NCBI GenBank assembly: GCA_028532985.1
Contig: JANCIK010000008.1
Span: 1,302,001-1,366,000 of the forward strand
Direction: 5' to 3'
DNA length: 64,000 nt
From: Stropharia rugosoannulata
Lineage: Eukaryota; Basidiomycota; Agaricomycetes; Agaricales; Strophariaceae
Positions within the stretch are counted from its first letter, which is position 1, and each line of letters starts with the position of its first letter. Position numbers and translations under genes: made by a program. Shown here in pieces: positions 24,201 to 51,574 of the stretch. The notes under the pieces were generated by a model that saw nothing but the letters and a program-made list of their open reading frames with translations, was not told where the DNA came from and did no database searches.

Positions 24201-25155
24201 GCCCAGTGATGGTACACTTCCCGTTTCCGAATGTGAGCATAAACCCAAGCTCATCAAGCTTCCCAACTGACACAAGAGTGTAGCCCGCCTCCGGAGAATA
24301 CAAGACCTCATCAAGACGGAGTTTGGTGATGTCGACCCCATTTGGTATGTCTATTGTGATGCTTCCCACGCCCGTAGCACTGAAGTTGCCCTTGTTCGCA
24401 GCGCGCAAGGCTTTCGGAGGGATTTCGTGGAAGTTTTCGAAGTCATCACAGTACGGGGAGATGTGTCGGGATGTACCAGAGTCCATGAGGTTTATGCGGG
24501 CAGCGTCTGGGGTTTCCGAAGTGGGGTGAGTAGCCAAAACCTCAGAGAGTGAGTCCTCGGAATCACTGGCTGACTGCATGTCTTCCCCATCAGAAATTCT
24601 GTCCCAGCTGCCATCGGAGCAGTGCTCAACATCATCCACCTCACCATCCTCATCGTCAGAGAACCAGTCGCTAGCGTTAGCCACGCTGCTCTCGCAATCG
24701 GAGTCGTCAGTCTCAGAATCAGAGTCAGAGCCAGAAATAGAAGCAAGATCCACAGAGCAAGAGTCAGAATCGGAATCCTCGACATTGCTATCCGCAGCCA
24801 GCACACAATCGCTGTCTGCATCGGAATCGCCAGCTGCTACAGCATTTGCAGCTTCTGTGGTCTTCTTGGCGGAACTCCCTTTGCCCTTGTCGTCTTTTGC
24901 GGGCTTGGGGCACTTGTCCTTGTAGTGACCTTTCTCGCCGCAGTTCCAGCATACACCACGGGGTAGTTTCGCCTTGCCCTTGCCGCCCTTCGACGTGTGA
25001 CCTACAGCGAGTGCCTCGTCCTTGTCACTGTCCTTTGACTTCGAGCCACCATAGCGCCTGTTGCGCTGGGTTTTCTGGCGCTCGTACTCCTCGGAAATGA
25101 GTGAAATGAGTGAATCAGGGGCAATGGTCTTGGTCTGAGCAAACATCCGGGCCGC
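21225..25155 (-). pseudogene. copia gag-pol, truncated and frameshifted
   Basis: Domains in order on the minus strand: a gag zinc knuckle CWNCGEKGHYKDKC (near 24950), an acidic Asp/Ser linker, a protease site MDSGTSRH, integrase (HRRMGHIS...CESC, then DLWGP, SDRGGEY and GVAERRNR), reverse transcriptase (KWVFRAKKD, IDIKGAYLNG, AVHVDDCTIV) and RNase H (GYADADGN, STTESEYVA, KHIDIRFHFI). This is the Ty1/copia order with integrase before reverse transcriptase. A 4-base duplication (atac) near 22410 shifts the frame between the two long ORFs. The first ~40 residues of the upstream ORF come from the neighbouring Ty3-C LTR, not from copia. Confidence 0.9.
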
Positions 25156-26120
25156 TGTGAGGGGCTGGGGCTGGCCCCTCGTGAAAACATGAAAAACCAT
25201 AAGGTTCAGAACATAGATACACAAGAAGCGACATATCCGCCATAACGATCGGAAACTACTATCGGAAACTGAAGGAACAAGAAGAAGCACGAAATATGAA
25301 GTCTAAGATATGAAGATGCAAGTTTATTCGAAGATATGAAATATGTACATGATGAAACAAGAAGACAAGCACAAGGAAGACTCAAGATGTTATTACAACT
25401 CAATGGCAGATCAAGAAAGATAACAGCATCAGAGCAATATTGGACTTCTGATGCCGACAACATCAGATCAATATTAACAATCTGATGTAACTATGGACCC
25501 ACAAGGGAGTCAATCACATGGAAATACTCGTACATACGACATGGGACAAATATGGCAACGGATTCCGACGATATGCAGGGGTTTCCGACGACATGCAAGC
25601 GTGTGGTAGCAGAAAGCAGAAGTATCTCGATACAAACACAAGGGACATAGGTGTGGAAAGAGGGTCGGAGGAGATGTATGTTTAGGGGAGAACATGGAGT
25701 TGATCCGGTCGCAGGAAGATCTCTTGTGCTTGGGCTTGGTTTCCGAAGATAAGGATATTTGTGGCCAAGATATGAAGCATGCTGTAGTGCAGCATGGTTT
25801 CCGACGAGATAAAGTCAGCACGGGCGGTCGGATCTTCGTGGATGGATATGGTACGATCTGGGCATGGCAACCAGACGGGTATTTAAGGAGTAGAATATCT
25901 CTGTACTTCTCCAGCTTCCTTCAGGGTTAAATTCTACCTACACACACCATACCAGTTCGCATCGGAAACCGTTGTTTAAACCTCGTACACTGGAAGCTCC
26001 TTGTTTTGAAACAAGTAAAACCTTTTCAACGTGCTATCGTTGTACACACGTTGCCTTCGCACATTGTGAACTTTAGAGACAGGCTTTTCAGACCAGTCCA
26101 ACCCAACTTCGCACCTCACA
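25156..26120 (+). repeat. Ty3-C 5' LTR
   Basis: Begins TGTGAGGGGCTGGGG and ends GCACCTCACA. TATTTAAGG near 25880 is a TATA-like box. The 3' copy is at 35739-36702 and an older inverted solo copy at 44536-45500. ORFs of about 85-120 residues on either strand here recur in each LTR copy and are not genes. Confidence 0.95.
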
Positions 26121-26123
26121 ACG

Positions 26124-26140
26124 TGGAGCCCACCGCGAGG
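26124..26140 (+). promoter_or_regulatory. Ty3-C primer binding site
   Basis: TGGAGCCCACCGCGAGG, three bases after the LTR, starts with TGG as expected for pairing with a tRNA 3' CCA end. The same 17 bases occur after the Ty3-B2 LTR. The tRNA was not identified; its discriminator base would be U. Confidence 0.75.
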
Positions 26141-26310
26141 GTCTACAGTTCACAATAGATCCGTCTGTTCCAGACCGTCGGATAACTCGTCAACTTGCTG
26201 CAGAATTTGCTATACCCCTACAACCTCCTGAAGCACCCATCAAGAGAAGAAGGAAAAGACCGACACCGTCAGGAAGCCAAATATCTTCAGTACTCAGCCA
26301 TATATCGGAA

Positions 26311-28293
26311 ATGGATCACGGAATCGAAGCAAACCCTTTTGAAGTTCAAACCGTGGCGCCCAAAGTCAAGCCTTACCCAAATCGCAACTCAAAAGATGCT
26401 CCATCGTTTACAGGACCCACTACTCCTTTACATCGATAGCTAGAGGACATCGAGGAATTATGCAAAGACAGGGGAGACACATCGGATATCACACGGATTA
26501 CAAAAACCCTGTGGTATGTGGATTACCGATACCACGAAACATGGAAGAATATTCTAGATGAAAACAAATCCTGGAAGGAGAATAAACAAATATTACTGGA
26601 ATATTTCCCTGGGTTGGATTCGCTCTACAAATACTCAGTCAACGATCTGCATAAATTAATACAGAAGTTTTCGAGCAAACCCATGGATAATCAAGAACTT
26701 CTAGCAGAATATCATTGTGAATTCATGATTATAGCTACTTATCTGGAGAAGGAGCAATTATCATCAAGAGACGACATCAACAGAAACTATGTTCTAGGTC
26801 TTCCAAAAGAATTCAGGGCGAAGGTTCTTACTCAATTAACGGCTGAAGACCCGAAGCGGAAACCGGGCCTGGTTCATGATTATCTTCAAGTTAATCGAGC
26901 GGCTCGATATGTTCTTCAAGATAACGCTTATTCTGACAGGTATGGCCTTGAAGACACACCTCGTGAACGGACGAAAACCGAAGAAACTGCTCTTGAGCTC
27001 ATGCTAAGGAAAATGACATCGGAATTAGGATCAATAAAGATGTTTATGCAAGGCCAACCTAATACATCTTTTCCGACGCAAGAAAGACCTATGTATCGTT
27101 CCACTCCGCGCTACGCCCCTGGTTGCTTGTTTTGCGGAGACATTAATCATATTATGAGGTCTTGCAACTTGCCGGATGAATTTATAAACAAGGGAATCAT
27201 CAAACAAGGGCCGAATGGTAGATTCACAATGGCTAACGGCGACTGGATCAATGGAACTGGAACAATAAAAGAAAGGATTGAAAACATCCTCAAACTGCAA
27301 TGTGCTCGAGATGTACCCCCTCACCTGTCGCCAGCTACCACGATGATGTTTTCCTGTACTACGGCTGAAACCTTGTTTAATTCTTCCAGTAAACTCGAAG
27401 AAGTCGACGAAGAAATCGGTGAGGTTTATCTGAAGACAAGGTCTTCGCCCCAAGACAAACCTGGACCAGGCAAAAACTCATCTGCTTATGAAAAAGTCCC
27501 TGAAGTCGTGATTGCCGAAAGGAAATCGGAAAAGACAATACCAGAAGCACATGTAAGATTTGAACCGGCTAAAGGACCCCAGTACCGATTCACCTCAGGA
27601 GCGGAAAATCTGGATCTTCTTAAGAAAGTCATATCAAAATCTTTGGATGCAGAAATTACTATTTCTCAAAGAGAGTTGTTGGCTATTTCTGGAGAACTTC
27701 GGAAATATTTCAAGGAAACAACTACACCAAAGAGAATTCCGACGGTTAGCTATGTTCATGGCGAAGAAAATGAAGGGTCTTATGTGCTACAATTTGCTTC
27801 GGAAAATGGGACATCGGATAGAGTCCTTTTGACGGCTTCTCCCCTTATGAAACTCAGGGTGATACCCGCGTTGCTAAACGGTGAATTCACGGCGGAATGT
27901 GTCTTGGACCAAGGATCGGAAATCATGGCAATGGACAAGCGCATATGGAGAAAACTGTCTCACAATATAAACCCAGAAAGGAAAATATATATGGAGTCTG
28001 CCAACACGGAATTATCGCAAACGGATGGAATGTGCGAAAACCTTAAAATCACTATTGGAAGCCTTGAACTCTATTTTCAAGTACATGTCGTGGATAAAGC
28101 CCCTTTTCAAGTTCTGATAGGACGACCGTTCTTTGTGTATACTGGATGCACTACTAGGGATTATACAAATGGCGACCAGGAAGTTACTTTGACTTGCCCC
28201 AACACACAAAAAGTGGTTACTATTCCAACTCAGCCCAGGAACAAGGTTTCCGAAAAAGAGTTAGCGGATTTTCCAGAATCCCGACTGAATTAA
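26311..28293 (+). pseudogene. Ty3-C gag-protease, one nonsense codon
   Basis: The frame from ATG 26311 is interrupted by TAG at 26437 and then stays open for 591 codons from 26518 to 28293. The first half is capsid-like (WYVDYRYHETWKNI, LLAEYHCEFMIIATYLEKE). A knuckle C-x2-C-x4-H-x4-C (CLFCGDINHIMRSC) lies near 27127-27168. The C-terminal part is a retropepsin-like domain with VLDQGSEIMAMD where LDSGSQ is usual, then VLIGRPFF. Asp is kept but the following Ser is Gln, so activity is doubtful. Ty3-B2 has the related domain with LDSGSQ. Confidence 0.8.
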
Positions 28294-28308
28294 AACGGTC
28301 GGGAAAGA

Positions 28309-31300
28309 TGTTCATGTTAAATATAGTGCACAAGAAACGACATGAACAGCAAGAGAAGGATATTCCTTCAGCACTATCATTTGGACGATTTATAACTCCC
28401 TTATTTGCGGCAAGAATAGATGATGAAAGAGGATCATCATACCATGAAATATACCCTACTAATTTTAATTTTGAAGTTTCGGCTAGATTTATCGGCCAAT
28501 GTTTACAGAAGACTTATGCTTACTCTTTTCAACAAAGAGCATTAATAATAAAAGCCAGGAAGAAATATAAACCTGTGGCAAGACGGACGTTTCCTGTGTC
28601 AACTACACTTCCCGAAGAATATCGTGTTATTAGAAGAATTCCATCGGATCCTCTGGCTAATATGAAACCGTTACCTTTTAAAGTGGACCATATTGAACCA
28701 GGAATACGCTATACTAAAGAACGAATGGATGCCTGGAACATAAATGAAGATGGCTTCTTGACACCGGATGAAGCTCGTCTAGTTCAATGGATCATTAAAG
28801 AACATGAGATGGGATTCGCCTGGAATGAGATGGAGAAAGGTGCCTTCAGAGAAGACTATTTTGAACCTCTAAAGATACCCGTTGTACCACATGAACCATG
28901 GGCGGAAAAACCGATACCGATACCTCCAGGCATCGCTAAAGAAGTCATGAGAATTTTTCAAGATAAAGTCGCAAGCAAAGTATATGAACCTTCTAGTTCA
29001 CCTTATCGGTCCAGGATCTTATATGTGCCAAAGAAAAGCGGAGCAATACGGGTGGTGCATGACCTGAGAAGGTTGAATGCAGTAACCATAAAAGACTCAG
29101 CTCTACCGCCAGTTGTAGAACTTTATGCGGAATCTTTCGGTGGAAGAACTATCTATGCCATGTTTGATTTGTTCGTAGGATTTGACCATCGGATTCTTCA
29201 TCAAGATTCAAGAGATTATACTACGTTCTCTTCGCCTATCGGAAACCTGAGATTGACCCGTCTACCACAAGGATTTACAAATTCGGTTCAAGTACAACAG
29301 GGAGATGTGTCATTTATCTTGGAGCCTGAGATTCCTGAATTTACGGCACCTTTTGTGGACGATGTACCGGTCAAAGGACCACGATCTTATTATCAAGATG
29401 AGAATGGGGTCTATGAAACGATTTCCGAAAACCCTGGCATCAGAAGATTTGTCTGGGAACACTTGAACAATGTACATCGCATTATTCAAAGGATACAGCA
29501 TGCTGGAGGAACCTTCAATGCCTCGAAATCCTTTTTGGCTGTACCAAGAATTAATGTTGTTGGCCATATGTGCAGCATCCAAGGAAGGACGGTTGATGAG
29601 TCAAAAGTCAGAGTTATCAGGGATTGGAAACCTTGTGAAAACTTGACAGAAGTTCGCTCATTCTTGGGAACATTGGGTGTAATGCGTATCTTTATAAAAG
29701 ATTATGCAATGCATTCAAGACTGTTAACTGAACTAACAAAGAAGGACGTTGAATTCACATGGGGACAAAGAGAACAAGAAGCAATGGACAGTTTAAAGCG
29801 TCTCTTAATTCAGTCTCCAGCATTAACGGCATTGGACTATGAATCCGAAGGACAGATAATAATGGAGGTGGACTCAAGCAACATAGCCGTGGGTTTTATT
29901 TTATCTCAGGTTAAAGAAGACGGAAAGGAACATCCTGCGCGGTTTGGTTCTATAACTTGGAACGAAAGAGAATCAAGATACTCACAAGCCAAGATCGAGT
30001 TATATGGCCTATTTCGCAGCCTTAGAGCGTATCGGATATACCTGGTTGGAGTGGAAAACTTGATAGTCAGGACTGATGCGAGTTACCTCAAGGGAATGTT
30101 AAACAACCCCGATATACAACCTAATGCTACGATAAATCGCTGGATAGCCGCCATACTTTTGTTTGACTTCAAGCTAGAACACGTCCCTGGAAAATCACAT
30201 TCACCAGACGGTCTGTCAAGAAGGAGACGATCAGAATTAGATCCTCAAGAAGATTCCGAAGAAGAAGTAGAAGACTGGATCGACAGGGCATGCGGCTTCG
30301 GAATCTGGGTCTTAAACAAAAATGACGATCGGAAATTCACTCACATGTCCATGGTACAGAAGAAAATACCAGGATCGTCATTGTCTTACAAGGCTATGGT
30401 ACTTATTGCAGCTAAATCGGTACCTCACCGTTCGGAAATTACTACAACGCTTAAATTACCGGTTTCCGACAGAGGGGCTGACATGGATGAGGAATTAAAG
30501 AAGGTCAAAGAATTTCTAGGCGACCCCGAAAGACCCGCATGGATTCGCACAAGAAAGGAGTATGACCGCTTCCTCAAGAAAGTAAGGCAATTCTTCATAC
30601 TGGACGGAAAGCTATGGAAAAGGTCCGATGATGGTGAACATAAACAAGTGGTACAACAAGAAGATAGGCTTCGGATACTTCAAGAAGTACATGATAACTT
30701 AGGACATAAGTCTTATTTCACTGTGTGGAATAGGCTCACGGCGTTTTTGGTGGCCTAACATCAGTAATGATCTTACGTGGTACTTGAAGACCTGCGATAT
30801 ATGTCAGCGACAGTCTAGGGTAAAGAACCTCATTCCGCCAACGGTAGCTCGTCCATTGTCGCTTTTTGTCAAAGTTCACGCGGATACTTTCTTTATGCCC
30901 AAAGGAAAAGGGGGAAAACATCTCTGTCTTCATCTACGATGTTCACTTTCGGGAATGCCTGAAGCTCTGGCTGTAGCGTCGGAAAACCATACGGTTATAG
31001 GAGAATTTCTGTTGGATGTTATGTCGCGATGGGGAGCTATGGCTATTATCGTGACAGACAATGGTACACCTTGGGTTAAAGCCGTGAACTACTTGGCGGA
31101 AAAATATGGAATCTACCACATCAGAATTTCGGGATATAATTCGCAGGCAAACGGCTTGATTGAAAAACGACATCTCGATGTTAGGGAAGCAATAGTCAAG
31201 ACTTGTGAAGGCGACTTATCAATATGGCCATTAATTCTCCGATTTGTTTTATGGGCTGAACGTGTTACGGTACAAAAATCAACAGGTTATACTCCCTACT

Positions 31301-31841
31301 ATATCGCACACGGAGTGGAACCATTATTTCCATTTGACATTACAGAAGCGACTTTCATGTTTCCGATCAAGTTGATATGATTTCCGAAGAAGAGCTAATA
31401 GCACGAAGAGCTATAATGCTGCAGAAGCGACCGGAAGATCTTGAAAGGGTCAAGGACAAAGTGGAGCAAGCACGGCTGAGGCAAGCTCGTTATTTTGAGC
31501 AATACAATAAGCATCGCATCGTGTTACAGGATTTCGCACCAGGTACTTTGGTCCTAGTCAGAAATTCACCAGTTGAAAAATCACTTGATCGGAAAACAAA
31601 ACCGCGATACTTTGGGCCTCTAATGGTGTTACGACGAACGAAAGGGGGGTCTTACATCTGCGCTGAACTCAGTGGAGCCGTATCCTACAAGAGATTCGCC
31701 GCATATCGCCTAATACCTTATATATCAAGAGAACCGCTTGAAATACCATGGGAACTATTGTCTCAACCCAAGGATCTAATTGAAGGCATGGTACGCGAAG
31801 AGGTACCTGAGGACTCGCAAGTGGCGCCTGATGATGAATAA
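28309..31841 (+). pseudogene. Ty3-C reverse transcriptase, RNase H and integrase, two frameshifts
   Basis: Pol is in the -1 frame relative to gag and probably starts at ATG 28309, 15 bp after the gag stop. The reverse transcriptase shows SSPYRSRILYVPKKSG, VVHDLRRLNAVTIKD, RLPQGFTNSVQ and FVDDVPVKGP at the active site; the related Ty3-B2 has YIDDVP. RNase H has MEVDSSNIAVG, KIELYGL and RTDASYLKGM. Integrase has HDNLGH...CDICQ, VHADTFFM, VTDNGTPW and GLIEKRH. A one-base loss near 30745 and another near 31360 split the integrase. The last part (31377-31841) is an SH3-like tail without a chromodomain. Confidence 0.85.
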
Positions 31842-32100
31842 CAAGTTTCCGACAACGCTTACACAACCTATATTTCTTAATGGAGCTTCAACAGTTTCAA
31901 GTTCATTTCTTCTCATTTGTTAAATAAACTCTTTTTCTTTTAGGTTATGTTTCTGTTTTTACAAGATTATAAAATTATTGCTTTCAAACTAAAATGTGCA
32001 TGACCAAGACAATTTATTGACTACAAGATACTATGACAATATGGTTTCCGACGAAGGGCGAAAGGAAATGCGACAAGAAGAAATACATATAAATCCTTTT

Positions 32101-33108
32101 TTACCTCCTGCGGAATCTTTTTACTTCCCCGGACATTCTACGGATCTCCTCGATACGCTCCATTGATAATTCCACCAGATCGCGAAGCCGATTTTCCATG
32201 TCAGAATAATGTCGCAGGTTTCTTTCGCAAAGGTCGTCCAGCTCTTCAAGCCCATCTGTTGGGTTGGCAGTCGTTTGCCATTCGCGGAAATCTCGCACCA
32301 ACTGCGTATATGGTGCATACGAGGGTAAACCCTCAACAGGACCGCTAGAACTTGCGTTGGGACTAGAACGCGTAATACCTGTGCAACGAGGTTACCGAAA
32401 CCTGTTAAAGATAGGGAATTGTAATTACTCACCTGAAGTTCCCTCGCCAACATCTTTTTGCTTTGCGACGATGGACTCCGTGTACTCGAAAACAGGCGTT
32501 GCCTCATAGTATGGAAGAGGGCCATCATCCTCAATTCGCATAGGGCTCGAAGGCGCGTTGTAGGGGGCTACTGCGTTGGCCGTGTCGTCTGCTTCAAGTT
32601 CGTCCACTTCTTCGACCTCGTTGTCCTGGCTGCTGTCGCTTTCGCTGTCGCTGTCGCCGTCGCTATCTTCTTCGGGCTCTGGGTGGACGGTACGGGACCG
32701 TCGGTCGTATGAGAAGTCGCTGCCAGCTAAGGCACGAGTCAGGAAGTCGCCCGGGTGTTGTTTCTAAATTACGGATGAAGTTATCAGCATGAAAGCGACA
32801 GAATACAATTAACGGACACTTACACATTCGGCAGTATTATTGCTGCAATTCTTTTTGTCAACCTTGCAATTGGTACATGCCCTGCTCCAGCGAGGTGTGT
32901 AGCGCAAAGTACACATATAGCCGGGGTGACTTTGGCACCAAGAACACCGCTAGGTCAATGCTTTAGTATGGCTGTAACTCAGTATGGCATATTTACTCAC
33001 CTGGTCGTACTCATACCACCCTTCTGCAAGTCCAAGAATTTGTGGAGCGGACCAGCGCATATCGACTTCATACGTAGAGGCGGGACGAGCGGTGCGACGA
33101 GGAGGCAT
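32101..33108 (-). CDS. asC1: four-exon antisense zinc-finger-like gene of Ty3-C
   Basis: Function unknown. Exons 33108-33001, 32949-32824, 32763-32433 and 32378-32101 join in frame with GT-AG introns of 51, 60 and 54 bp and give 280 residues with no defect seen. Exon 2 starts directly with six cysteines, C-x2-C-x7-C-x11-C-x2-C-x6-C (RCSWC ... ACTNCKVDKKNCS), likely a zinc site. Exon 3 is acidic with a D/S repeat. Exon 4 is a charged coiled-coil helix (LCERNLRHYSDMENRLRDLV) ending in KRFRRR. A TATA box TATAAAAAG on the minus strand (33172-33180) lies 64 bp before the ATG. The gene converges with pol, whose stop is 260 bp away. The 33109-33728 stretch holds this promoter and no other gene. Confidence 0.75.
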
Positions 33109-33728
33109 GTCTTAAGCAGGTGATGAATGTGGGGGGGGAAGAATGGTGAAAGTATGAGTGGAATGGGCAGGCTTTTTATATTCTTCTGGGACAGTGGTTC
33201 AGCACGCTTTCGGAAATCGGCTAGCTTTGAATGGGTCCGGCATCAGGCGTGGATGGCACTATGAAGAAACCGATAGAATGCTGTGGATTCTTCTCTATGA
33301 CTCGGTCCTATATGTTGGACAATTGGCCTGCCTTTACTGGAACCGCGATAACTTCGACGCGAATCTTGTTCAGATTTTCTATTTTTAGGTCGGAAATCAC
33401 CGTGGCTCATGTTCTGGAAAGCGGCGTTGCCTAATCAAGTATGACGGCGTGATGGCGTCGGGTTTATGGTGACGTGCCGTGCTGCTTTAGGGAATGGCGA
33501 TACCTCTTTTGTCTGCCGTCCGGTTGTTGCTGCGGCATTGCTCTGGGTTGCCGCGGAATTTTCAACTGGCGTTTTCGGCTGTAATGGCGCATGTGTAAGC
33601 TGGGCGGCTTGTTCAGTTTTACTTCGGCATCTTCCATTTTCATTCGGCATTTTTCGGCATCGTATGGCAGTGTCAAATTTGTGTGCGGAAATCTATCATA
33701 AGGAGTTTACATCTATGGGCAGTTGTAT

Positions 33729-34238
33729 CTACGGCTGATTGGCTTGTTTCTCAATCCAGTCCCTCCATCTCTCTACTCCATCTATGGTGAAGTCAGTTTC
33801 GCACAAGTAGCAGTGGCGGAAACCTTGCGACTGCTTCTCAGCTGCTTTGAGTAGGCTCAATGCCTTATCCTGCTCGCTGTCTACAAGAACGGCCCGTATT
33901 CGCTCATGACCCGGCGAAGCAAGAGTAGTGTCCACGATGACTGGGGTCGGAATTGTTTCGCGGATATATAATCTTCGAAATGGTCATTCTGTGCAGAATA
34001 GGGATTGTCAATTGGGTTTGATTTCAACGGGACAAGTGGGTCAACTTACAATGTAATGGCACAGGGCGGCAAGTGTCCGATGTGTTTCCATCGCGTCTGT
34101 TGCGGAACGAGATAGCATTTGATCGGATATCAATTGGTCTATGGTAGGCCGAATGGCATGCTCTAGGACCTGCATGATGTCCGCTGGATTCTTCACAGCT
34201 GTGGTCAATAATGTGGTGAATCGCGTGGTGGTGCTCAT
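33729..34238 (-). pseudogene. asC2: short antisense gene of Ty3-C, possible frameshift
   Basis: Not recognised. Exon 1 is 34238-34050 (63 codons, helical, ending THRTLAALCHYI) with donor gtaagt. The acceptor at 33989-33990 starts exon 2. In phase, exon 2 ends after 34 codons, while the more protein-like frame (FRHCYLCETDFTIDGVERW, 33935-33729) is one base off, so either a one-base error is present or an exon was missed. TATAAAAGGG on the minus strand (34268-34277) is 30 bp before the ATG, a strong core promoter. A single C-x2-C pair is seen. Confidence 0.5.
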
Positions 34239-34381
34239 TTCTGGTGTTTGGGCAGACTAGTTGCCTTCCCTTTTATACAGATTTCAGGCGCTGGGCTACT
34301 TGGCATTGGACGATCTGGACGCATGGATACATGTCACTTGTCTGGAGATTATCTAGCTAATTTCCGACAGCCGGTTGTTGG

Positions 34382-34870
34382 TTATGGGTCGCCTACTCCG
34401 CACACACATGCCTGTTGATACTGGAAGAAAACGTCGTCCATGCGCTCCTTGATTTCGGGAATCTCGTGCCCGGTGTATCCAAATGTCATCGTCATGTATC
34501 GCATACGCATTAACACCCTCAATTCGGCCATGGTGATTTGCTCGTTGGGCGATTGATGTATGCCTACATGTTGACAACCATGCCATGCTATATACTATGA
34601 TAGTGTTAGGGCGGCACGTCCCCTCAAGACGTTACTTACTGCTATGGTTTGTCCTAGGAACAAGAAGGACTGGAGATCGGTTATGACAGGCTGCAAGTTG
34701 ATGGTGTCAAGCTGGAGTATTCGTGTGTATTCATATTCTAGGGCTTCGACGAATGGATCAAGGCAATGTTTGAAGACATATGGGATCGGAAATCGCGATC
34801 GGAAATCGTTTAGATCGGTGGGCAACTCAAGCACTAAAGATTGAAGATATAGACGTAAAGGCGCTTGCAT
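34382..34870 (-). CDS. asC3: two-exon antisense gene of Ty3-C
   Basis: Not recognised. Exons 34870-34640 and 34594-34382 join in phase across a 45-bp GT-AG intron to give 147 residues. The first exon is helical and leucine-rich (LRLYLQSLVLELPTDLNDF); the second holds AELRVLMRMRYMTMTFGYTG and ends ACVCGVGDP. TATATAAAG on the minus strand (34907-34915) lies 37 bp before the start. It is between asC4 and asC2 on the same strand. No stop codon or frameshift was seen. Confidence 0.6.
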
Positions 34871-34908
34871 TGCGGGTGCTACGGAATAATCTACTAGAGC
34901 TCTACACT

Positions 34909-35652
34909 TTATATATCCATCTCTCGCACCGATGTTCGGAATCTAGCATGTGGACGCTGGGAGGGAACGGCCGTTTGAAGATGAAAGATCGCCGCTGGAA
35001 TTTCTTCGATGTCTGATGTGTCTTCAGGTGTTGCGGCTGGCCTGAATGCTGGCAGGTGTTCTTCAAGGGGGTCTTCGGCTTTGACGCGGTTTGAAAACTG
35101 TAACCACCACCGACTGTTGCTGTCCAGGTCATTAAATTCTTTGAAGTCGACTTGGTTTTCTTTGGTGGCATCGGCAGTGTCCTCAGCATATAGCGCCATG
35201 AACCGCAGTATGGTCGACCAATACTCAAACCCTTCATGTTCCTCCATCGGAAACATCTCCAGTAAATGCCTGGCACTGGCGCTTAGGTAGCGGCATTCAG
35301 GTGGAATCATACGCTCGATTTCACGCTCATTTGACGGCCGCATGTTGACGCGCGAGCATAGCAATAAACGCTGCGCTATCATTAGCAGGGCTAGTTGTGA
35401 AGCGGTTCGAGGGCTTACCATGTGATCAAAATGATCATGAGCGTACGCTTCCACTTGCGCATGGTCGATTATGTTCAGTTCTCGTACGCTGCGAGTGCGG
35501 ATGTCCTTGTAGATGGCGAGGCATAGGATTTCATGTTGGTGACGGATGGTCAACGCAAATTCACGCATGGTTGTTGGTACAACGAATGCATGGCTTCGGT
35601 TTCCTGGAGCAAAACAGAGCGAGCGAAATATTCTTTCTGCTGCGGGGTCCAT
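34909..35652 (-). CDS. asC4: single-exon antisense gene of Ty3-C next to the 3' LTR
   Basis: 247 residues from ATG 35652, not recognised. The protein is mostly helical, with SQLALLMIAQRLLLCSRVNM near residues 85-105 and RHLLEMFPMEEHEGFEYWST after it, then an acidic C-terminal third. TATAAAT on the minus strand (35685-35691) is 33 bp before the ATG, and the 3' LTR starts only 87 bp upstream. Transcription would thus start inside the element and run against pol. A longer in-frame reading upstream enters the LTR and is not a better start. Confidence 0.65.
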   Translation of the reverse strand: MDPAAERIFRSLCFAPGNRSHAFVVPTTMREFALTIRHQHEILCLAIYKDIRTRSVRELNIIDHAQVEAYAHDHFDHMVSPRTASQLALLMIAQRLLLCSRVNMRPSNEREIERMIPPECRYLSASARHLLEMFPMEEHEGFEYWSTILRFMALYAEDTADATKENQVDFKEFNDLDSNSRWWLQFSNRVKAEDPLEEHLPAFRPAATPEDTSDIEEIPAAIFHLQTAVPSQRPHARFRTSVREMDI

Positions 35653-35729
35653 GGTGCTTGATGGCGACGACGCTTTTGGCTGAAATTTATAGGTTTCCGA
35701 CCACCCAGGAGGGTGGTGTTTTAAAAGTT

Positions 35730-35738
35730 GGGGGGAGA
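35730..35738 (+). promoter_or_regulatory. Ty3-C polypurine tract
   Basis: ggggggaga directly before the 3' LTR; the same word precedes the Ty3-B1 LTR. Confidence 0.8.
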
Positions 35739-36702
35739 TGTGAGGGGCTGGGGCTGGCCCCTCGTGAAAACATGAAAAACCATAAGGTTCAGAACATAGA
35801 TACACAAGAAGCGACATATCCGCCATAACGATCGGAAACTACTATCGGAAACTGAAGGAACAAGAAGAAGCACGAAATATGAAGTCTAAGATATGAAGAT
35901 GCAAGTTTATTCGAAGATATGAAATATGTACATGATGAAACAAGAAGACAAGCACAAGGAAGACTCAAGATGTTATTACAACTCAATGGCAGATCAAGAA
36001 AGATAACAGCATCAGAGCAATATTGGACTTCTGATGCCGACAACATCAGATCAATATTAACAATCTGATGTAACTATGGACCCACAAGGGAGTCAATCAC
36101 ATGGAAATACTCGTACATACGACATGGGACAAATATGGCAACGGATTCCGACGATATGCAGGGGTTTCCGGCGACATGCAAGCGTGTGGTAGCAGAAAGC
36201 AGAAGTATCTCGATACAAACACAAGGGACATAGGTGTGGAAAGAGGGTCGGAGGAGATGTATGTTTAGGGAGAACATGGAGTTGATCCGGTCGCAGGAAG
36301 ATCTCTTGTGCTTGGGCTTGGTTTCCGAAGATAAGGATATTTGTGGCCAAGATATGAAGCATGCTGTAGTGCAGCATGGTTTCCGACGAGATAAAGTCAG
36401 CACGGGCGGTCGGATCTTCGTGGATGGATATGGTACGATCTGGGCATGGCAACCAGACGGGTATTTAAGGAGTAGAATATCTCTGTACTTCTCCAGCTTC
36501 CTTCAGGGTTAAATTCTACCTACACACACCATACCAGTTCGCATCGGAAACCGTTGTTTAAACCTCGTACACTGGAAGCTCCTTGTTTTGAAACAAGTAA
36601 AACCTTTTCAACGTGCTATCGTTGTACACACGTTGCCTTCGCACATTGTGAACTTTAGAGACAGGCTTTTCAGACCAGTCCAACCCAACTTCGCACCTCA
36701 CA
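35739..36702 (+). repeat. Ty3-C 3' LTR
   Basis: Differs from the 5' LTR by one substitution (near 36168) and one missing G (near 36270). It ends CACCTCACA and is followed by ccggg and the truncated Ty3-B2 integrase. Confidence 0.95.
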
Positions 36703-39590
36703 CCGGGGACATGTGCATAGTGTCCGCGTGTAGTTGCTGGAAGATAGACGGCGTGTGTGTCTCGGTGCGCGGGATCTGAATGATCGTCTTCTGCCTTAAC
36801 TGACAGACATGACATGTTTTCACATACCAATAGACATCCCTTTCCAACTCAGGCCACCAGAAGCGCTCGGCTAGCAGTTTGCGCGTAGCGTACGCTCCCC
36901 TGTGCCCCAAGCTGTCATGCGCTGAGCGCAGCATGCGTGTCCGCTGCGCCTGATCTATCACCAATTTATGCGCGTCATCTATGGATCTCCGGTACATCCG
37001 CCCATCCTTGTCTAAGAAGAAGTTACGAGCATTCCTCGTAAAGTTCTGATATTCTCGCTCCGTCATGCCTTTAGGCCTAGTGGTTGGATTCTGCAACCAG
37101 TAGCGTATCATCGGCAATTTCTCATCCATATCTTTTCCTGCAGACGTCCTGTTGTGCTCATCGTACTCCTCATCCTCCAGATCCTCTATTCTGGAGTCGG
37201 GTATGGCGTGCGCTAGTATGAATTTCTCTAAGTACTCGCGCTGCACGAGCGGTACACTCTCTTTCTGTATGAAGTCCCGCACGGCCCGCTTTTCCGCTTC
37301 CGTCTCTTCCCGTGCGCGCTCGAGCTCCTGCTGGAAACAGCCTATAGAGCGCGCTTCTGGCAACTTGCGCGCGGTGGGACCTTCAAACAACTCGTTGAGT
37401 AGTCCTGTGTATAGATACCCGCCGCGATCGTCAATCTGTTCTTTGAACTCCTCAAAGTCCAGGGGATCCGGGTCCTCTTCATAGACTTTCTCATATTCGA
37501 GCGGTCCTACCTCTTGATCATCATCTTCTTCAGAGTGCGCGTACGCCTCATCTCCCAATTGCCCTTCCCTACGTGATAAACCATCCGCACCAAAGGTTTT
37601 GCCCGCAACATGTTTCAACTGGAAGTGATACATAAGTATTTTATCTATCCAGCGATTAATAGTCGCATTAGGGCCCATGCCCGGATTATCCAACATGCCC
37701 TTCAAGTATTTGGCATCCGTTTCCACCACCAGCTTGCGCGCACCGATGAGCCAGTAATAACAGGCTTGTAGCGCACGTAAGAGTCCATACAACTCCCGTT
37801 TGGGCTGTGAGAAGCGCTGCTCGCGTTCCGTTAACAGTATTGATCCGAAGCGCGCATATACCCTCTTCTTCGAATCTTGTGGGTCCTGCTGATAAATATA
37901 GAACCCTACTGCTCGCCACGATGTGTCAACAGCCAAAGTAATCGGCCCTGGCAATGTGTAGTCCAGTGGTTTCACGCAATGTGCGTTGCGCGCACCGTCT
38001 TTCAGCGAGTCCATGCTAGCTTGCTGAGCGGGCCCCCACTCAAAGGGTTCTTTCCCACGCAACAGCCGCTGTATGTGCTCTGCGCGCTTCGCGTAATCCG
38101 AGATGTAAATCCGTAGCAGACCCATTGTACCCATGAATGCGCGCACATCACTGATGTTCTTGCATGGCCCCCAATTGAGGATCGCATGCACTTTATCAGG
38201 TGCTGGCTTTCGTCCTTCGTATGTACACAAGTGCCCCACCACTACTATCTCAGCCGCGCACAGTATGGACTTCTTTCCACTAAATGTTCCTCCTGAGTAC
38301 TTCATGCGCTGCACGATTCTGTTGACATTCAACATGTGTTCCCATACAAATCTCCTTATTCCCTTATTCTCTGGTATCGTCTCATATCCTCCTCCTTCTA
38401 ACTCGTAGCGCGTTTTAGGTCCCCTAATAGGTACATCGTCTATATAGGGTTCTGTAACTTCAGGTATTTCATCGCGTAATATATATGCGACATCCTCATG
38501 AAAGATGGGCACGGAGTTCGTCCATCCCATAGGTAGGGTTACTAAGCGCAGCGCACCGAACGGCGTCTGGAATGTAGTCAGGTCTCTAGAGGACTCAGCT
38601 AACAGCCGCTCATCGTACCCAACATACAAGTCCAGGATGCCGCCACATGCGCGCCCCGCAAAGTGTTCCGCTAGACTCTCTGCTGCTGGAGGCAGTCCTG
38701 AATGTGCAATGGTTACCGCATTTAACGGTTCGAGACTGTGCACAATTCTGAACGAGACCCCATCTTTCTTAGTCACTGTAAACCAGCGCGACCGGTACGA
38801 TGAGCTCGAGGGCTCATACGTGCCTGCGCGAATCTTGGTGGCGATGAATTCACATACGCGCTCATACATCCCAGGTGGTATTGGAATGTTCTTCAATACC
38901 CAAGGCGTGTGTTCTACAGTGGGAATGTCTACTGGAGGGAAGAAGTCCGTACGGAATCTACCCTTCTCTGTGTCATCCCACGCGAACGCCTCGTTCTGCT
39001 GCATGAAAACTTGATGCACCAACTTGCGCTCCTCGGACCACAGGAAATCCCCTTCATGCGCCTTGTCAATTCCCTCCATGCGCTCAGCGGTGTACCGACC
39101 TGTAGGTACGAAGTCTGGCGGATGTGGTGACAATTGCGGCATGTCCTTTAGTGGGTCTCCTTTTATCTCCCTCACTATTCTAAACTTCTCTGGTAAATCT
39201 TGATAGACAGGCCTGACTTTCTCAGCCACTGGCTTATACTTCTTTCCTGCGAGCACCGTAACGGTTGTGGCATTCTTGCCAGTCAAGCGCTTACGTGTTA
39301 CTCCTTGTCTCTTACTAGGGACCTGTTCCTCGTGCGATGCGCGGAACTGCCCCCTAGGCTCTCCTTTGACTACTTCCTCTTTGCGCCATTCGCGCTGAAA
39401 ATACTTGTATATTCTTTCTTTCTCATCATCCTCCATCTTTGCCTCATGTACTGCTTGAGCCATGTATACATCCCTGAGCTCAGCGCTCCCAAACCGCTTC
39501 TTATTCTTTGGTAGCGCGTACCCCGCTATCTCTATTTTCCCCGTGCGATCATCTCTGTCAAACATCAACGCGACCTCTCCTTGACGCATC
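36703..39590 (-). pseudogene. Ty3-B2 pol, truncated in integrase
   Basis: An open frame of about 960 codons. Reverse transcriptase: YEPSSSSYRSRWFTVTKKDG, IVHSLEPLNAVTI, LPMGWTNSVPIFHED and YIDDVPIRGP at the active site. RNase H: LAVDTSWRAVGFYI, KRELYGLLRALQA, ETDAKYLKGML. Integrase: HDSLGHRGAYATRKLL, CHVCQLRQK and the first Asp in LHADTMHMSP, where the frame meets the Ty3-C LTR. The ATG overlaps the protease stop codon as TGATG (39589-39592 area), an arrangement that allows termination-reinitiation. Up to the truncation no stop or frameshift is seen. Confidence 0.9.
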
Positions 39591-40164
39591 AAATCATCGA
39601 GGATTGAAAATCCTGATCTGCGTTAGGGTTTTCCATCGTGCCAGGGTCCTGCAACTTAGGTTCGCGCTGCACAATCTTGGGACCGCACCCTCGGTTATAG
39701 GTGGGTACGACCAATTTGCGCTGTGTGTTGGGATCGGTGAGCGTAAGCTCAACCGTTCCATCACCGCGCGTCTTGACATTGCTCTCCGTGAGGATCTCGA
39801 ACGGCCTGCCCAAGAGTACCTCATAAGCCGCTGCGCTGATGACATGTACTTGTAAATACACTGTCAGCCCGTTAAACACAAACGGTACATTGCGCGCTAA
39901 ACCCTTGGTGGATTCCACCTGCTTATTCGCGCTCTGCATTCGTATAGTGAAGTCCGGGTCCCAACTAAGTCCTAAGCGCTCAGCGGTGTCCTGTGCCATT
40001 GACACAATCTGCGACCCACTGTCGAGCAACGTCTCTGCGTGTCCCTTGCCGTTGATGAGCGGAAATACCGCCTTCAGATGGTGCGATTTGCGCGCCACAA
40101 TAAGTCCCTTAGGCTTTTCGCCTGGTTGCAGAGTCGAGACGTACTGCTCGTACGGGTCTTCCAT
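39589..40164 (-). CDS. Ty3-B2 protease ORF
   Basis: 192 codons in the -1 frame relative to gag, overlapping it by 91 bp. It shows LLDSGSQIVSMAQ, the aspartic protease active site, then VLLGRPFEILT, matching the flap and hydrophobic-glycine region of retropepsins. A frameshift during translation, or one sequence indel, would join it to gag; in Ty3-C gag and protease share one frame. Ends in TGA, overlapping the pol ATG. Confidence 0.8.
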   Translation of the reverse strand: MEDPYEQYVSTLQPGEKPKGLIVARKSHHLKAVFPLINGKGHAETLLDSGSQIVSMAQDTAERLGLSWDPDFTIRMQSANKQVESTKGLARNVPFVFNGLTVYLQVHVISAAAYEVLLGRPFEILTESNVKTRGDGTVELTLTDPNTQRKLVVPTYNRGCGPKIVQREPKLQDPGTMENPNADQDFQSSMI

Positions 40165-41927
40165 GATGATGGTCCCCGGTTGCAGTCCGCTGCGCTCATC
40201 TGAGCAAGTAAGGAAAGTGGCCCAGGTGCCATATACGCTTGCTGCGCGGGCGGCCCATTCTTCTTATGCCATTCGTCGACGCGCTCTTTGATCGCGCGCG
40301 AAGGGTCCCAAGGTATCGATGACCCGTCAGGTAACTGTAAGCGCCCCGCCTCAGTAATGACAATCCTCCCCGCTGACAAGTCTTGCTGCCGTACGATGCA
40401 CTCAGCAACCACATGTCCCGTCTGCTTGCAGTAGAAGCAGCGAGGCTCCGGGCGTTGTTGGTATTGGAAGGGCCTAGGCGGCGCTCCACCAAAACTCGGT
40501 GCGCTCATGGGCATCATGGGGGCTACTGGTTGCACAGGCACCGACATCGGTGCGGCGCGCGCAGCCATGACATTGCGGATAATGTCCTCCAACTCTTTCC
40601 TACTCGACTCCTTTGACTTCGCCACTGTCTTCTCCACTAGTGACAAGGTATCCTTGAAGGAAGCGACGAACCCTTTCAGGTCCTCAATCTCTCCGCGCAG
40701 CGAACCAACATCCGCGGCCTCAGTCTTGATGGCGGGCACCGGCATGAGTCCATCAGTGCTATCGCGCCCTAGGCTCAGCGTAGTGCTTGGGTTCTTGGTG
40801 CGGGCCATTTGTTCCGCCATCTCGGCTACCTGTTTGAGAGGGTACATGTCCTCGGTGCGCGCTTCTACCGTCACCCCAGTAGGTGCAGTGAACTGTATAT
40901 TGCGCTCAGTCAGGAACTTGTCGAACGATGCGCGCGTTGTGTAATCAATGTCCAGTTTATTAAACAATCGATCCCTGAACCCCGCAGTGAGACTATTGGT
41001 GAAGTAAGTCACCAAGGTATGATTCGCAAGCAGGGTAGGCGCCTTCGTGAGCTTAGCGGCCTCGGCCAAGAACGCGCGCTTGAAGTCCAGCAACACCTGG
41101 AGGTCTTCCTCCGAGATGCGCTGATTCTCCTTGCAGAGCTTCTTGAGCCGCGCAATGGACCCTGTCTGAATGCTGATCACCTCCGGGTACTCGTTGAGAA
41201 TCATTTTCTTGAGCTCCGCGTACCCCTTGGTATCATAACCTGGTAAATTCTTCCACTCCTCCGCCGTCTGCATGGGTACATATTTTATTACATATCCCCT
41301 CTTCTCATCGTCCTCCGTCACCTCCGCGCGCTTAAACCAATCCTCCAGGTCCTCGAAGTACCGCGGTAGCTCATCGCGCTCTGCAGCAGGATCGAAGCTC
41401 GGCGCGCCGCGCGCACCGCGTACTGGCATGGACATATCCTTAGGCATAGTTTCTGGTTCTCGTGGGGGTGAATTTCGTTCGCTTTCTGAGAGATCTGACA
41501 AGTCTCCTCCAAATATATCTCTCGCTACGCGCTCTGCCTCACTTTCGCTATTTTCCGCCGTGCGCTGCGCGGATGTCTTAGCAGTCCCAAATACTTCCGA
41601 GAATGGAGGAGGGGTGTCTTGGGTAGCTTGGCTATCAGAAGTACCGAATGGTGCGGTTTCAAGTGTAATATCACCGTCCACTAATTGGTCTTCTGATTCA
41701 ATGCCAGATGGTGGTCCCCAAAATCCACTAGTCCCTACTCTTAATTCCGAGTCGCTTTCGGTGAGCGCACCTGGGATGCGCTGCGCTAATCCCTGAGTCT
41801 CGATCTGCAACTGCGCTTCCTCCCTCGCTCTTTTCTTTGCTTTTCTGTCTCGCGTCGGTGTAATTACCAACGGCTCTACCAGCTCAGCGTTTTTCTTGCT
41901 CCTCGTGGTTCTCTCGCGTGAAGGCAC
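40074..41927 (-). CDS. Ty3-B2 gag
   Basis: 617 residues. The N-terminal 170 are charged and of low complexity. The capsid-like part contains RYFEDLEDWFKRAEVTEDD and FFTNSLTAGFRDRL-like patches. A helical linker precedes the zinc knuckle CFYCKQTGHVVAEC (about 40440-40400), then GRLQLPDGSSIPWDPS, which resembles the sequence after the Ty3-C knuckle (GRFTMANGDWINGTG). This supports common descent of families B and C. Confidence 0.85.
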   Translation of the reverse strand: MPSRERTTRSKKNAELVEPLVITPTRDRKAKKRAREEAQLQIETQGLAQRIPGALTESDSELRVGTSGFWGPPSGIESEDQLVDGDITLETAPFGTSDSQATQDTPPPFSEVFGTAKTSAQRTAENSESEAERVARDIFGGDLSDLSESERNSPPREPETMPKDMSMPVRGARGAPSFDPAAERDELPRYFEDLEDWFKRAEVTEDDEKRGYVIKYVPMQTAEEWKNLPGYDTKGYAELKKMILNEYPEVISIQTGSIARLKKLCKENQRISEEDLQVLLDFKRAFLAEAAKLTKAPTLLANHTLVTYFTNSLTAGFRDRLFNKLDIDYTTRASFDKFLTERNIQFTAPTGVTVEARTEDMYPLKQVAEMAEQMARTKNPSTTLSLGRDSTDGLMPVPAIKTEAADVGSLRGEIEDLKGFVASFKDTLSLVEKTVAKSKESSRKELEDIIRNVMAARAAPMSVPVQPVAPMMPMSAPSFGGAPPRPFQYQQRPEPRCFYCKQTGHVVAECIVRQQDLSAGRIVITEAGRLQLPDGSSIPWDPSRAIKERVDEWHKKNGPPAQQAYMAPGPLSLLAQMSAADCNRGPSSWKTRTSSTSRLCNQAKSLRDLLWRANRTI

Positions 41928-42092
41928 CGTTCCAAAGGATGGTCTGGCTTCTTCTGGCTCGGCGAGCGATGAAGGCGCAGGAAATTTGCCTCGCTTGTTA
42001 CTCGTCCCCGTTTTATTTGAAATTTTTGTAATTTATTGTAATAGGCGCAAGCCGTAGTTCCCGAAACACTAATTGAGATTTCTGAACCTTCC

Positions 42093-42109
42093 CCTCGCGG
42101 TGGGCTCCA
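42093..42109 (-). promoter_or_regulatory. Ty3-B2 primer binding site
   Basis: On the minus strand TGGAGCCCACCGCGAGG, two bases after the LTR, identical to the Ty3-C site. Confidence 0.75.
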
Positions 42110-42111
42110 GA

Positions 42112-43325
42112 TGAGAGGTCTACTGCGTGGCTAGACTCGAAATCGCGAAACACAACACACACACACACCCAGCGGAGCGAGATCCTATCCTTTAGATCGA
42201 GTGAACGCCCTCAACTAAACGGCTAGTATAATCTTTGCTCTGCTCTGGTTCCCGGTCTGGGCGTGCGATGCGCGCACCTCGTGTCCTCTAGTCTTTGTAA
42301 TAGCAAGTAGTGCCTGCAAGTTCGTTTGTAAGGAGGGGTTTAATTCTAGTAAATCTCGGATAGAGCCCGGTTGCTAGTGGCGTGCGCTAGGCAAAATGAT
42401 AAATGAAATAAGTTGTTTTAGCGAACGGCTTCGCTGCGCGCACTTCCGGGTCCGGTGACCTCGTATGATGCGCGGACTCTCCAAAAGTCCAACAATCCAA
42501 GACTCTCCAAAGTCTTTCACCCGGTGGTGCAGTCTCACAGTCTAAACACTACAGTGCGAGTTTCCGTACACGGTTGTACTGACTCCTCACTGAGCTCTCC
42601 AATTGACCCGGTGGCCAGAAGCTATCCAAAACTCCTATGATTCACAAATACTTCACAGTTAAAACCCTAACAAAAGCTAAACACAGCCCGCTGACGGCCT
42701 GGGACAGAACCCAGCACACAGATCTAGTGGGTAGACAATTGCTTAATTACTATAGACAAGGATACAGGTTTATATGCGATGCGCGCATGTGTACTAATAA
42801 TAATAAGGTAAAGTAAATACTAGCAACGCGCGGCCAAAGGTCCGCGCATCGCATCCGGGCTTCCCTTCGAGTGTCCTGATCCCTTGGCATTCGCTGCGCG
42901 CATGTCGTTTGTTCCCTCGGGCTTTTGCGCGTCTTTTGATGCGCACCGCCACGGTCACATGATGTGTGGACTTAGGCAAATTCTGCCTTTGCAATGCGCG
43001 CACATGAGATGCGCGCACAGCCCTTCACACCGCCCTTGGTACTCGCTCAGCTGTACTCACACCGCACTTCGCTGGTGCTTAACCGTTCTACGCCTCTCCG
43101 ATCGCTCGCACGGATGACCAGACTATGCACTTTAGGCTGTGCAGCTCGCTGACCGATCTCTCTCGCAATACGGTGCGCACAGGCGCTTATTGTCATAAAG
43201 CGCGCTGATAGCTATAGACTATGAGTCAGGCTCCACTCTAGTCCCTCCGTGTTTTCCCGCGCGCAGCTGTCCCACCAATGGGACTTCAGACTGTTTACAC
43301 CCGTAGCCAAAAAGCAGCCCTGTCA
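42112..43325 (-). repeat. Ty3-B2 5' LTR
   Basis: 1214 bp; read on the minus strand it begins TGACAGGGCTGC and ends GACCTCTCA. Near-identical to 9166-10382 in inverted orientation, with scattered substitutions. Confidence 0.9.
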
Positions 43326-43331
43326 ACGGAC

Positions 43332-43545
43332 CTAACTACGCATGACCACCCCCTGAATTAATCGACGGGGAGTCTGAATATGAAGTGGAACGAATTATGC
43401 ACCATAGAAGGAAGGGTGGCAAAAGAACTGAATACTTGGTCAGATAGAAGGGCTACAACGCCAACAAGGACTCTTGGGAGCCACCAGCAAACCTGAAGAA
43501 CACCTCAGACATACTTAACAAGTATCGAACCCAACACCAGCTATA
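43332..43545 (+). pseudogene. Ty3-D chromodomain, end of pol
   Basis: The frame reads PPPELIDGESEYEVERIMHH, then TEYLVR, a stop codon, then KGYNANKDSWEPPANLKN. A chromodomain has LVKWKGY at this place, so the stop is TGG changed to TAG. An upstream TGA (43350-43352) fits CGA changed to TGA. The piece ends NKYRTQHQL and a TAA. In chromoviruses this domain follows integrase and steers insertion to particular chromatin. Confidence 0.85.
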
Positions 43546-43553
43546 AGTTAAAA

Positions 43554-43880
43554 ATGTCCCTCACCGAAGTCTACCACTACTGCAAGAGAACGATACGCAA
43601 CTGGTTTAATAAAACTCCCACCATAACACCCCACTTTCCCATAATGCGCAGCATGAGGACCCCTCTGCTCTCACCAGAAGACGTCCCATGGCCATTGCAA
43701 ACCCAAGACTTACAGCAAGCGCTGGAATTAGTCAGGATATTTAAAGAACACAGCGAAACTAGCGAGTCAGCGGACCCACTACAAGAAATTTATAAGGACA
43801 TCGTGGCAGACCTTGCGGGAGTTGAAGAAGACCTGAGGGAAAAAGAAGCGAGAGGAGAAAGAGGCATGCTGATAACCTAA
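43554..43880 (+). CDS. small ORF after the Ty3-D chromodomain
   Basis: 108 residues from an ATG eight bases after the pol stop. Not recognised. The first 25 residues are basic and aromatic (VYHYCKRTIRNWFNKTP); the rest is acidic and helical (DLAGVEEDLREKEARGERG). It may be an accessory product of Ty3-D or chance. Confidence 0.35.
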   Translation: MSLTEVYHYCKRTIRNWFNKTPTITPHFPIMRSMRTPLLSPEDVPWPLQTQDLQQALELVRIFKEHSETSESADPLQEIYKDIVADLAGVEEDLREKEARGERGMLIT

Positions 43881-43958
43881 AAATAAATAAGATAACAAAA
43901 GGCTTAAAAAGACCCAGAACGAACGACCACCCCTAACAGCCTACCAACTTGATAAAAG

Positions 43959-50500: not shown

Positions 50501-51010
50501 TCAATCAGATCAAGCTCTACAACATTGGGCGGTGGGGGACTATTAACCATGCGCTTACGCAGGCGCTTACTTGGGGGATCTATATTATAGATTCATTTAT
50601 CCGTTGTTTAATGGAGATAATGCATATGTTTACTCACTTTCTGTCCCATCGTCGTCATCACTAAGCGAAATCGGTGTATCTCGCTTGCTGCCACTAGTTG
50701 GTGTGCTTGCATCCTTGTCCTGGGCCGATGGCTGAGTAGACTCTGCCGTGACACCAGAATTGGAGGTCGCAGTCGCAGATGTTGGTGGTATCGAGGTTGA
50801 GATGGGGGATGTCGATGCAGAGTCCGGGTGACATGTATCAGTATGTGTACTAGTTTGTTGACTAGTGACAGGCGTGGGCATGGGCGTGGAAATAGAAGCC
50901 AGAGCGGCCATGCAGGCATTTTGGTGAGATTTCAATTGGATTTCAGCAGTATTTGAAGAATCTCAGAGTCTTTCCGAGGGCCGAATTGTGTGTTTACCAT
51001 TGCGATCCAT
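47592..51010 (-). CDS. hAT family transposase
   Basis: A multi-exon gene starting at ATG 51010 (MDRN, then an intron). Domains in order: a Ser/Thr-rich N-terminus, a BED-type zinc finger (CIIC near 50380, then TTLRRHLEAFH after an intron near 50260), the RNase H-like core (LTCDAWQADN, VTGHWIEE near 49640; GWITCDNAANNVTML near 49400; CLAHVINLAMQALIG near 49215; DMKVRWSSTYVML near 48930), and the C-terminal dimerisation region (SVSSERTFSSAGITIRKRR near 47830). GT-AG introns of about 50-60 bp separate these. No stop codon was seen inside the conserved exons, so the gene could be functional. Exact exon borders need RNA evidence. Confidence 0.85.
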
Positions 51011-51236
51011 GCTCGAGGTTCGGTCAAGGTGTTGTTTGGTGGAGATTTATGTTATTGAGAAAAAACAAATTAAAATTTACAACTAGCTAGTTACATCAAA
51101 ATATTGAAGCAGCGATCAAATCTACAATAACAAAAGGATCCGAGCTACAGTTGCTGAATGACTGCAATGAGGACACTGTTCAACTCTCAAGTGTTCTGTG
51201 TTCTGTATGAGGCATAACTATTAACGAGTCAGAGGG

Positions 51237-51520: not shown

Positions 51521-51574
51521 CGACAGAGACATGCAGTAAACACTGCAGCGGGGTGGATGGGTCACAGTGATGTC

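Follow-up and report, generated by a model that had tools for sequence, protein, structure and literature searches.

We analyzed a 64,000-nucleotide window of the Stropharia rugosoannulata genome (assembly GCA_028532985.1, contig JANCIK010000008.1, positions 1,302,001 to 1,366,000; the sequenced genome is ~48 Mb and coordinates below are those of the window), which contains a Ty3-type long terminal repeat (LTR) retrotransposon with a block of four genes, asC1 to asC4, lying antisense between pol and the 3′ LTR. The genes are numbered such that asC1 adjoins pol (33108-32101) and asC4 adjoins the 3′ LTR (35652-34909), and each has its own TATA-like box, scored for conservation in the eight copies printed.

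25156..26127, plus strand: 5′ LTR, aligned against the 3′ LTR
26440..31841, plus strand: gag-pol, in four overlapping frames (26440-28293, 28158-30758, 30703-31380 and 31338-31841)
32101..33108, minus strand: asC1, exons 33108-33001, 32949-32824, 32763-32433 and 32378-32101, 280 amino acids
33172..33180, minus strand: TATA-like box of asC1, kept in 8/8 copies
33729..34238, minus strand: asC2, exons 34238-34050 and from 33988; other copies open to 33729, 149 amino acids
34268..34277, minus strand: TATA-like box of asC2, kept in 7/8 copies
34382..34870, minus strand: asC3, exons 34870-34640 and 34594-34382, 147 amino acids, intact
34907..34915, minus strand: TATA-like box of asC3, kept in 8/8 copies, overlapping the end and stop of the asC4 frame
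34909..35652, minus strand: asC4, open frame of 247 codons; possible 48-nt intron at 35418-35371 (231 amino acids if spliced)
35685..35691, minus strand: TATA-like box of asC4, kept in 8/8 copies, 2 bases from a TTTCCGA site at 35694-35700
35739..36709, plus strand: 3′ LTR, aligned against the 5′ LTR

The two LTRs are 99.6% identical over 972 columns (3 mismatches, 1 gap), so the insertion is probably young. Fungal Ty3 pols are the closest relatives of its pol (those named among the best 120 matches come from Rhodofomes, Leucocoprinus, Pleurotus and Candolleomyces), and a Pfam scan of frame 28158-30758 found RNase H domains above the cut-off and reverse transcriptase below it; the element thus appears to represent a young Ty3-type family that is agaricomycete-like by its named pol relatives. 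In the window copy pol is broken into three overlapping frames, and several other copies have frames of 1228 amino acids. The idea that copy L010 has a different LTR was rejected, its LTR being interrupted near 36.19 kb.

To ask how the block fares across the family, we took 36 genome matches from a DNA search and aligned 20 of them (9 after reversal). Frames are open in 14/20 copies for asC1, 17/20 for asC2, 16/20 for asC3 and 15/20 for asC4, and every intron is GT..AG in 20/20. Stops summed over the 20 copies number 0-2 in the correct frames vs. dozens to hundreds in most wrong frames. The ratio of nonsynonymous to synonymous substitution rates (dN/dS) is 0.16 for asC1 (bootstrap limits 0.13-0.20), 0.26 for asC2 (0.15-0.45), 0.19 for asC3 (0.09-0.32) and 0.11 for asC4 with the possible intron left out (0.07-0.16); two frames at the pol end have ratios of 0.10-0.12 and contain 25 and 2 stops across the 20 copies. 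A low ratio is also seen for most genes in one opposite-strand frame, but that frame mirrors third positions and is riddled with stops. No sense-strand frame in the block exceeds 159 amino acids. The weak stretch is exon 1 of asC2, which alone has a dN/dS of 0.50, vs. 0.36 in one wrong frame and 0.29 in one opposite-strand frame; the second exon and tail of this gene give 0.20 and 0.12.

We also followed the block from the pol side, using the 25 of 41 pol matches that reach the end of the query. The block follows pol on the same strand in all 25, after 249-267 bases (in 4 of them its first 280 bases are in diverged form), and is therefore not a separate insertion with its own ends, an alternative that the initial annotation of the window had raised. 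These comparisons show that the four antisense genes proposed in that annotation encode proteins, contain introns, are conserved and belong to the element as a constant component, with dN/dS among copies of 0.11-0.26 and open frames and introns kept across the 20 copies.

The exon models proposed at the outset hold as well: all four exon phases of asC1 fit, asC3 is intact, and asC2 of the window copy does carry a one-base fault, its frame running out of phase to a stop at 33881 (this split recurs in one copy on contig C11). Within the open frame of asC4, a 48-nt GT..AG stretch is a candidate further intron, given that an intron lies at a similar place in related families and that the stretch varies more than the exons; its own dN/dS is 0.29, with wide limits of 0.05-1.14. 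The TATA-like boxes, conserved in 7-8 of the 8 copies printed, are putative promoters, and the TTTCCGA site at 35694-35700 beside the asC4 box is present in 18/20 copies. Related families (L021, L029, L030, L031, L027) also have an antisense gene adjoining the 3′ LTR on its inner side that, like asC4, reads as two exons with a phase-0 intron, homology not being proven. The antisense gene of F52/F55 shares place, strand and a similar intron position with asC4, and a proposed homology between the two was left unproven (BLASTP E 0.08 and 0.49, hhalign probability 1.3%).

Within the block, asC1 stands apart, with a mean identity between copies of 84% vs. 93-97% for the pol end, asC2-asC4 and the LTR, and a dS of 0.55 vs. 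0.08-0.20 for the rest. Its introns differ between copies by a mean pairwise distance of 0.22-0.30, with intron ends unchanged, and the gene occurs as several old allele types that have apparently been exchanged between copies. The Cys-rich exons 1-2 have a dN/dS of only 0.05 and encode an N-terminal cluster C-x2-C-x7-C-x11-C-x2-C-x6-C, whose Cys positions are constant in four aligned allele types and in nine copies aligned over the Cys exon; the middle of the protein is acidic. This pattern is zinc-cluster-like, and asC1 is likely a zinc-binding protein. Fungal Zn2Cys6 (Gal4-type) factors follow the consensus C-x2-C-x6-C-x5-12-C-x2-C-x6-8-C and target a CGG triplet; the spacing in asC1 is close to this consensus, with a first loop of x7 instead of x6, basic residues in the second loop and no Pfam match. 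In one copy, L018, numerous arginines of the antisense proteins are replaced by Cys, His, Gln or Trp, which resembles C-to-T decay (methylation or repeat-induced point mutation).

Searches for relatives returned little beyond the family itself. Genome searches with asC1, asC2 and asC4 (best candidates scored; asC3 was not searched) matched only family members, bar one asC2 match at E 0.07, and so lend no support to the earlier suggestion of captured host genes. Pfam scans gave no family for asC3 or asC4 and none above the cut-off for asC1 or asC2, with no TRP28/transposase_28, no bZIP family and no Zn_clus match for asC1. In a base of 5.8 billion proteins, which contains agaricomycete Ty3 pols up to 84% identical to that of the element and from which spliced genes may be missing, neither asC4 (174 candidates) nor asC1 (1893 candidates) had a relative at E 0.001. 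Viral contigs yielded no relative of asC4, and a PDB search with asC1 returned nothing below E 0.1. Structure models had predicted local distance difference test (pLDDT) scores of 43.7 for asC4 and 55.9 for the asC1 Cys exon. The idea that the antisense genes are mutual paralogues was rejected for the two pairs compared by profile (asC4-asC3 and asC3-asC2), both negative.

The second feature of the element is a heptamer, TTTCCGA, scattered over its whole length.

25249..36550, both strands: dispersed TTTCCGA/TCGGAAA sites, whole element
34786..34805, no strand assigned: paired motif TCGGAAA-N6-TCGGAAA, in asC3 exon 1
25249-25268 and 35832-35851, no strand assigned: a further pair in each LTR

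Between 26126 and 36707 there are 30 sites (12 plus, 18 minus) vs. 2.9 expected, in all codon phases, and in the whole window 50 vs. 8.9 expected (maximum 18 in 100 shuffles). Density per kb is 5-6 in the LTRs, 2.8 in gag-pol (16 sites in 26126-31841) and 0.2-0.3 elsewhere in the window, with 5 of those 14 sites falling in another LTR of the same family. The consensus is R-TTTCCGA-H, and single-base neighbours of the heptamer are mostly at or below expectation, with a few mildly raised (up to 7 vs. 2.1). Sites have a median gap of 233 bp; when the element is cut into 21 bins of 500 bp, 17 contain a site, in line with Poisson scatter. Genome-wide, the pair TCGGAAA-N6-TCGGAAA has 97 matches vs. 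0 for the reversed control, and a longer motif pattern shows no enrichment (608 vs. 585 for its reversed control, some counted twice). The motif is largely confined to the element's own family.

Synonymous-codon shuffles of gag-pol give a mean of 2.61 sites vs. the 15 distinct sites present, a number reached in 0/500 shuffles (highest 9). Taken by frame, the excess is 6 vs. 1.15 in gag and 6 vs. 0.65 in pol (0/2000 each), 2 vs. 0.55 in the third pol frame (105/2000) and 3 vs. 0.18 in the last (0/2000); on the antisense side it is 2 vs. 0.21 in asC3 (9/2000) and 1 vs. 0.13 in asC4 (249/2000), and asC1 has no site. Across copies, the 19 sites in the 3′ half are intact in 0.921 of cases, vs. 0.809 for heptamers drawn at random from the segments concerned (15/5000) and 0.765 for heptamers matched in CpG and GC (0/5000), an advantage that is modest when taken segment by segment. 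These results show that the heptamer behaves as if selected at the DNA level.

Two further Ty3 lineages with antisense Cys-cluster genes have dispersed heptamers of their own, TGCGCGC and CAGCGGA, and four families in which no antisense Cys-cluster gene was seen are without all three heptamers. The TGCGCGC and CAGCGGA lineages are related, with pol 88% identical, the Cys-cluster gene 36-46% identical and the motif switched; between related lineages the most diverged genes of the antisense block are the Cys-cluster gene and its LTR-side neighbour. A CGG triplet lies within two of the three lineage motifs. One of these lineages, WIN2, is also represented in the window.

36708..44530, minus strand: WIN2-lineage piece, private motif TGCGCGC, 21 sites

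Homology between the asC1 Cys cluster and that of WIN2/Z is not proven. Two other candidate motifs were rejected: TGCGCGC in the C8 element F52, where the sites sat in the flank (the word belongs to the WIN2 lineage), and a dispersed CATCGCA in F50, where 11 of 12 sites lie past pol and one in gag-pol. L025/L026 and L034 (F50) have a long block of antisense open reading frames (ORFs); a search of it for a Cys cluster found none, and their gag-pol has no dispersed motif.

Several other features were seen around the element. A WIN2-type Cys-cluster exon, 59% identical, lies at the left window edge (821-1039, minus strand), and an inverted LTR of the TTTCCGA family, 93-95% alike and with 5 TTTCCGA sites, adjoins the WIN2 piece (44531-45504, minus strand). 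A Copia-type pol frame (22261-25302, minus strand) extends into the 5′ LTR as though interrupted by the insertion. Identical direct repeats of 300 bases at 1754-2053 and 7484-7783, 5.7 kb apart, are probably the LTRs of another young element. Finally, ACTAGTCA/TGACTAGT sites form a partly closely spaced cluster at 50859-52206, the 8-mer having 13 contexts in 50-60 kb vs. 0.3 expected.

A dispersed, family-confined tag suggests that the element makes a protein recognising its own copies; that the word occurs in either orientation and in any codon phase suggests that it is read in double-stranded DNA, and that the motif differs between lineages of very similar gag-pol suggests that the antisense block encodes the reader. 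We propose that this product, most likely the Cys-cluster protein asC1, would bind the heptamer along every copy in double-stranded DNA, and that binding might in turn protect the element's chromatin from being closed by host silencing, the role that VANC proteins have for VANDAL elements; both asC1 as the reader and the anti-silencing effect are inferred. Little effect on host genes would be expected because only the element carries a dense array. The antisense position would let the genes retain their introns through the RNA stage, and lineages would change protein and motif together. We consider the chances evenly balanced that this is an element-encoded, VANC-like self-recognition system, probably anti-silencing. 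The broader proposal may equally well prove right or wrong: that some fungal Ty3 elements encode an antisense DNA-binding protein for a lineage-private heptamer, placed in coding regions too and selected at the DNA level, with protein and motif switching together in a VANC-like arrangement of independent origin. The initial annotation had suggested control of copy number or of host defence; the private dispersed motif, which it did not mention, points towards self-recognition.

An unlikely alternative is that a host DNA-binding protein (silencer, insulator or activator) reads the motif and the antisense genes do something else. The tie between motif and antisense protein is putative, and asC1 has no relative by protein search or Pfam, both of which suit a host reader; yet this genome has three private motifs, every one of them in a lineage that carries an antisense Cys-cluster gene, which would not be expected of a host factor. 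We find it somewhat less probable still that an antisense protein represses its own sense transcription or blocks further insertion (copy-number control), leaving lineages with different motifs mutually blind. The density of sites in the LTRs, the site adjoining the asC4 TATA box and the coexistence of deep asC1 allele types would fit such a repressor, which would however need sites at promoters and not throughout gag-pol; moreover, the asC1 alleles do not look like separate immunities because the Cys domain and the motif are nearly constant across them. Self-recognition at the cDNA stage would make the motif comparable to bacterial DNA-uptake sequences, a mark by which new double-stranded cDNA is protected, imported into the nucleus or selectively integrated. 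It would account for sites over the whole length, on both strands, in coding and non-coding sequence, and we rate it improbable. That the antisense genes are Retand/Grande-type accessory genes and the motif enrichment a compositional or mutational by-product is very improbable given the synonymous shuffles, the off-diagonal controls and the retention relative to matched heptamers, even with other kinds of enriched heptamers in the genome.

If element-encoded self-recognition is correct, sequence-specific self-recognition by transposons would not be peculiar to plant VANDAL elements, and fungal genomes would contain sets of DNA-binding proteins, each paired with its own short motif and blind to those of the others. 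A private DNA motif, apparently selected, offers a testable target, with three proteins and three motifs.

Among known antisense genes, that of human T-cell leukaemia virus (HTLV) is called HBZ and encodes a bZIP protein, unlike the genes here, in which Pfam scans found no bZIP family. As described in PMC7264820 and PMC11963269, the HTLV gene lies antisense towards the 3′ end of an LTR element, as here, with its promoter in the 3′ LTR, whereas the TATA-like boxes here lie inside the block, one per gene. The view in the initial annotation that such genes are rare, with HBZ as the comparison, was incomplete: according to the same papers, the plant elements Grande, RIRE2 and Retand and the fungal element Boty have antisense ORFs in the interval from pol to the 3′ LTR, for which a regulatory role is proposed but no function demonstrated, with an own promoter and a nuclear product reported for Grande gene23; PMC7264820 cites descriptions of LTR-retrotransposon antisense genes since 1997, without established function. 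The genes here resemble those ORFs (Grande gene23, RIRE2, Retand TRP28) in place, orientation, conservation between copies and the lack of relatives found outside transposons. They differ in number, being four, in having several introns, in giving neither TRP28 nor any other Pfam domain above the cut-off, and in being accompanied by a private motif dispersed over the element. Our literature search, judged by titles and the starts of abstracts, found no private dispersed motif in a retrotransposon.

The closest functional parallel is VANC of Arabidopsis VANDAL elements, a self-encoded protein that recognises the motif of its own family and relieves silencing (PMC5735166); unpublished work on the co-evolution of VANC and its targets in Arabidopsis is mentioned in a meeting report of 2026 (PMC12859917). 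We suggest that the present system, in which binding is putative, works like the VANC system and is not a member of it, as VANDAL is a Mutator-like DNA transposon and the element here has a Ty3-type pol and LTRs. As PMC5735166 and PMC10398659 describe them, VANC motifs lie mainly in non-coding tandem repeats in one orientation, whereas here the motif is dispersed, in both orientations and in coding sequence too. In both systems a short motif is enriched in the family's own copies and rare elsewhere (here, own copies vs. the compared sequences, not a genome-wide count of the bare heptamer), and, just as different VANCs use different motifs, protein and motif diverge together between lineages.
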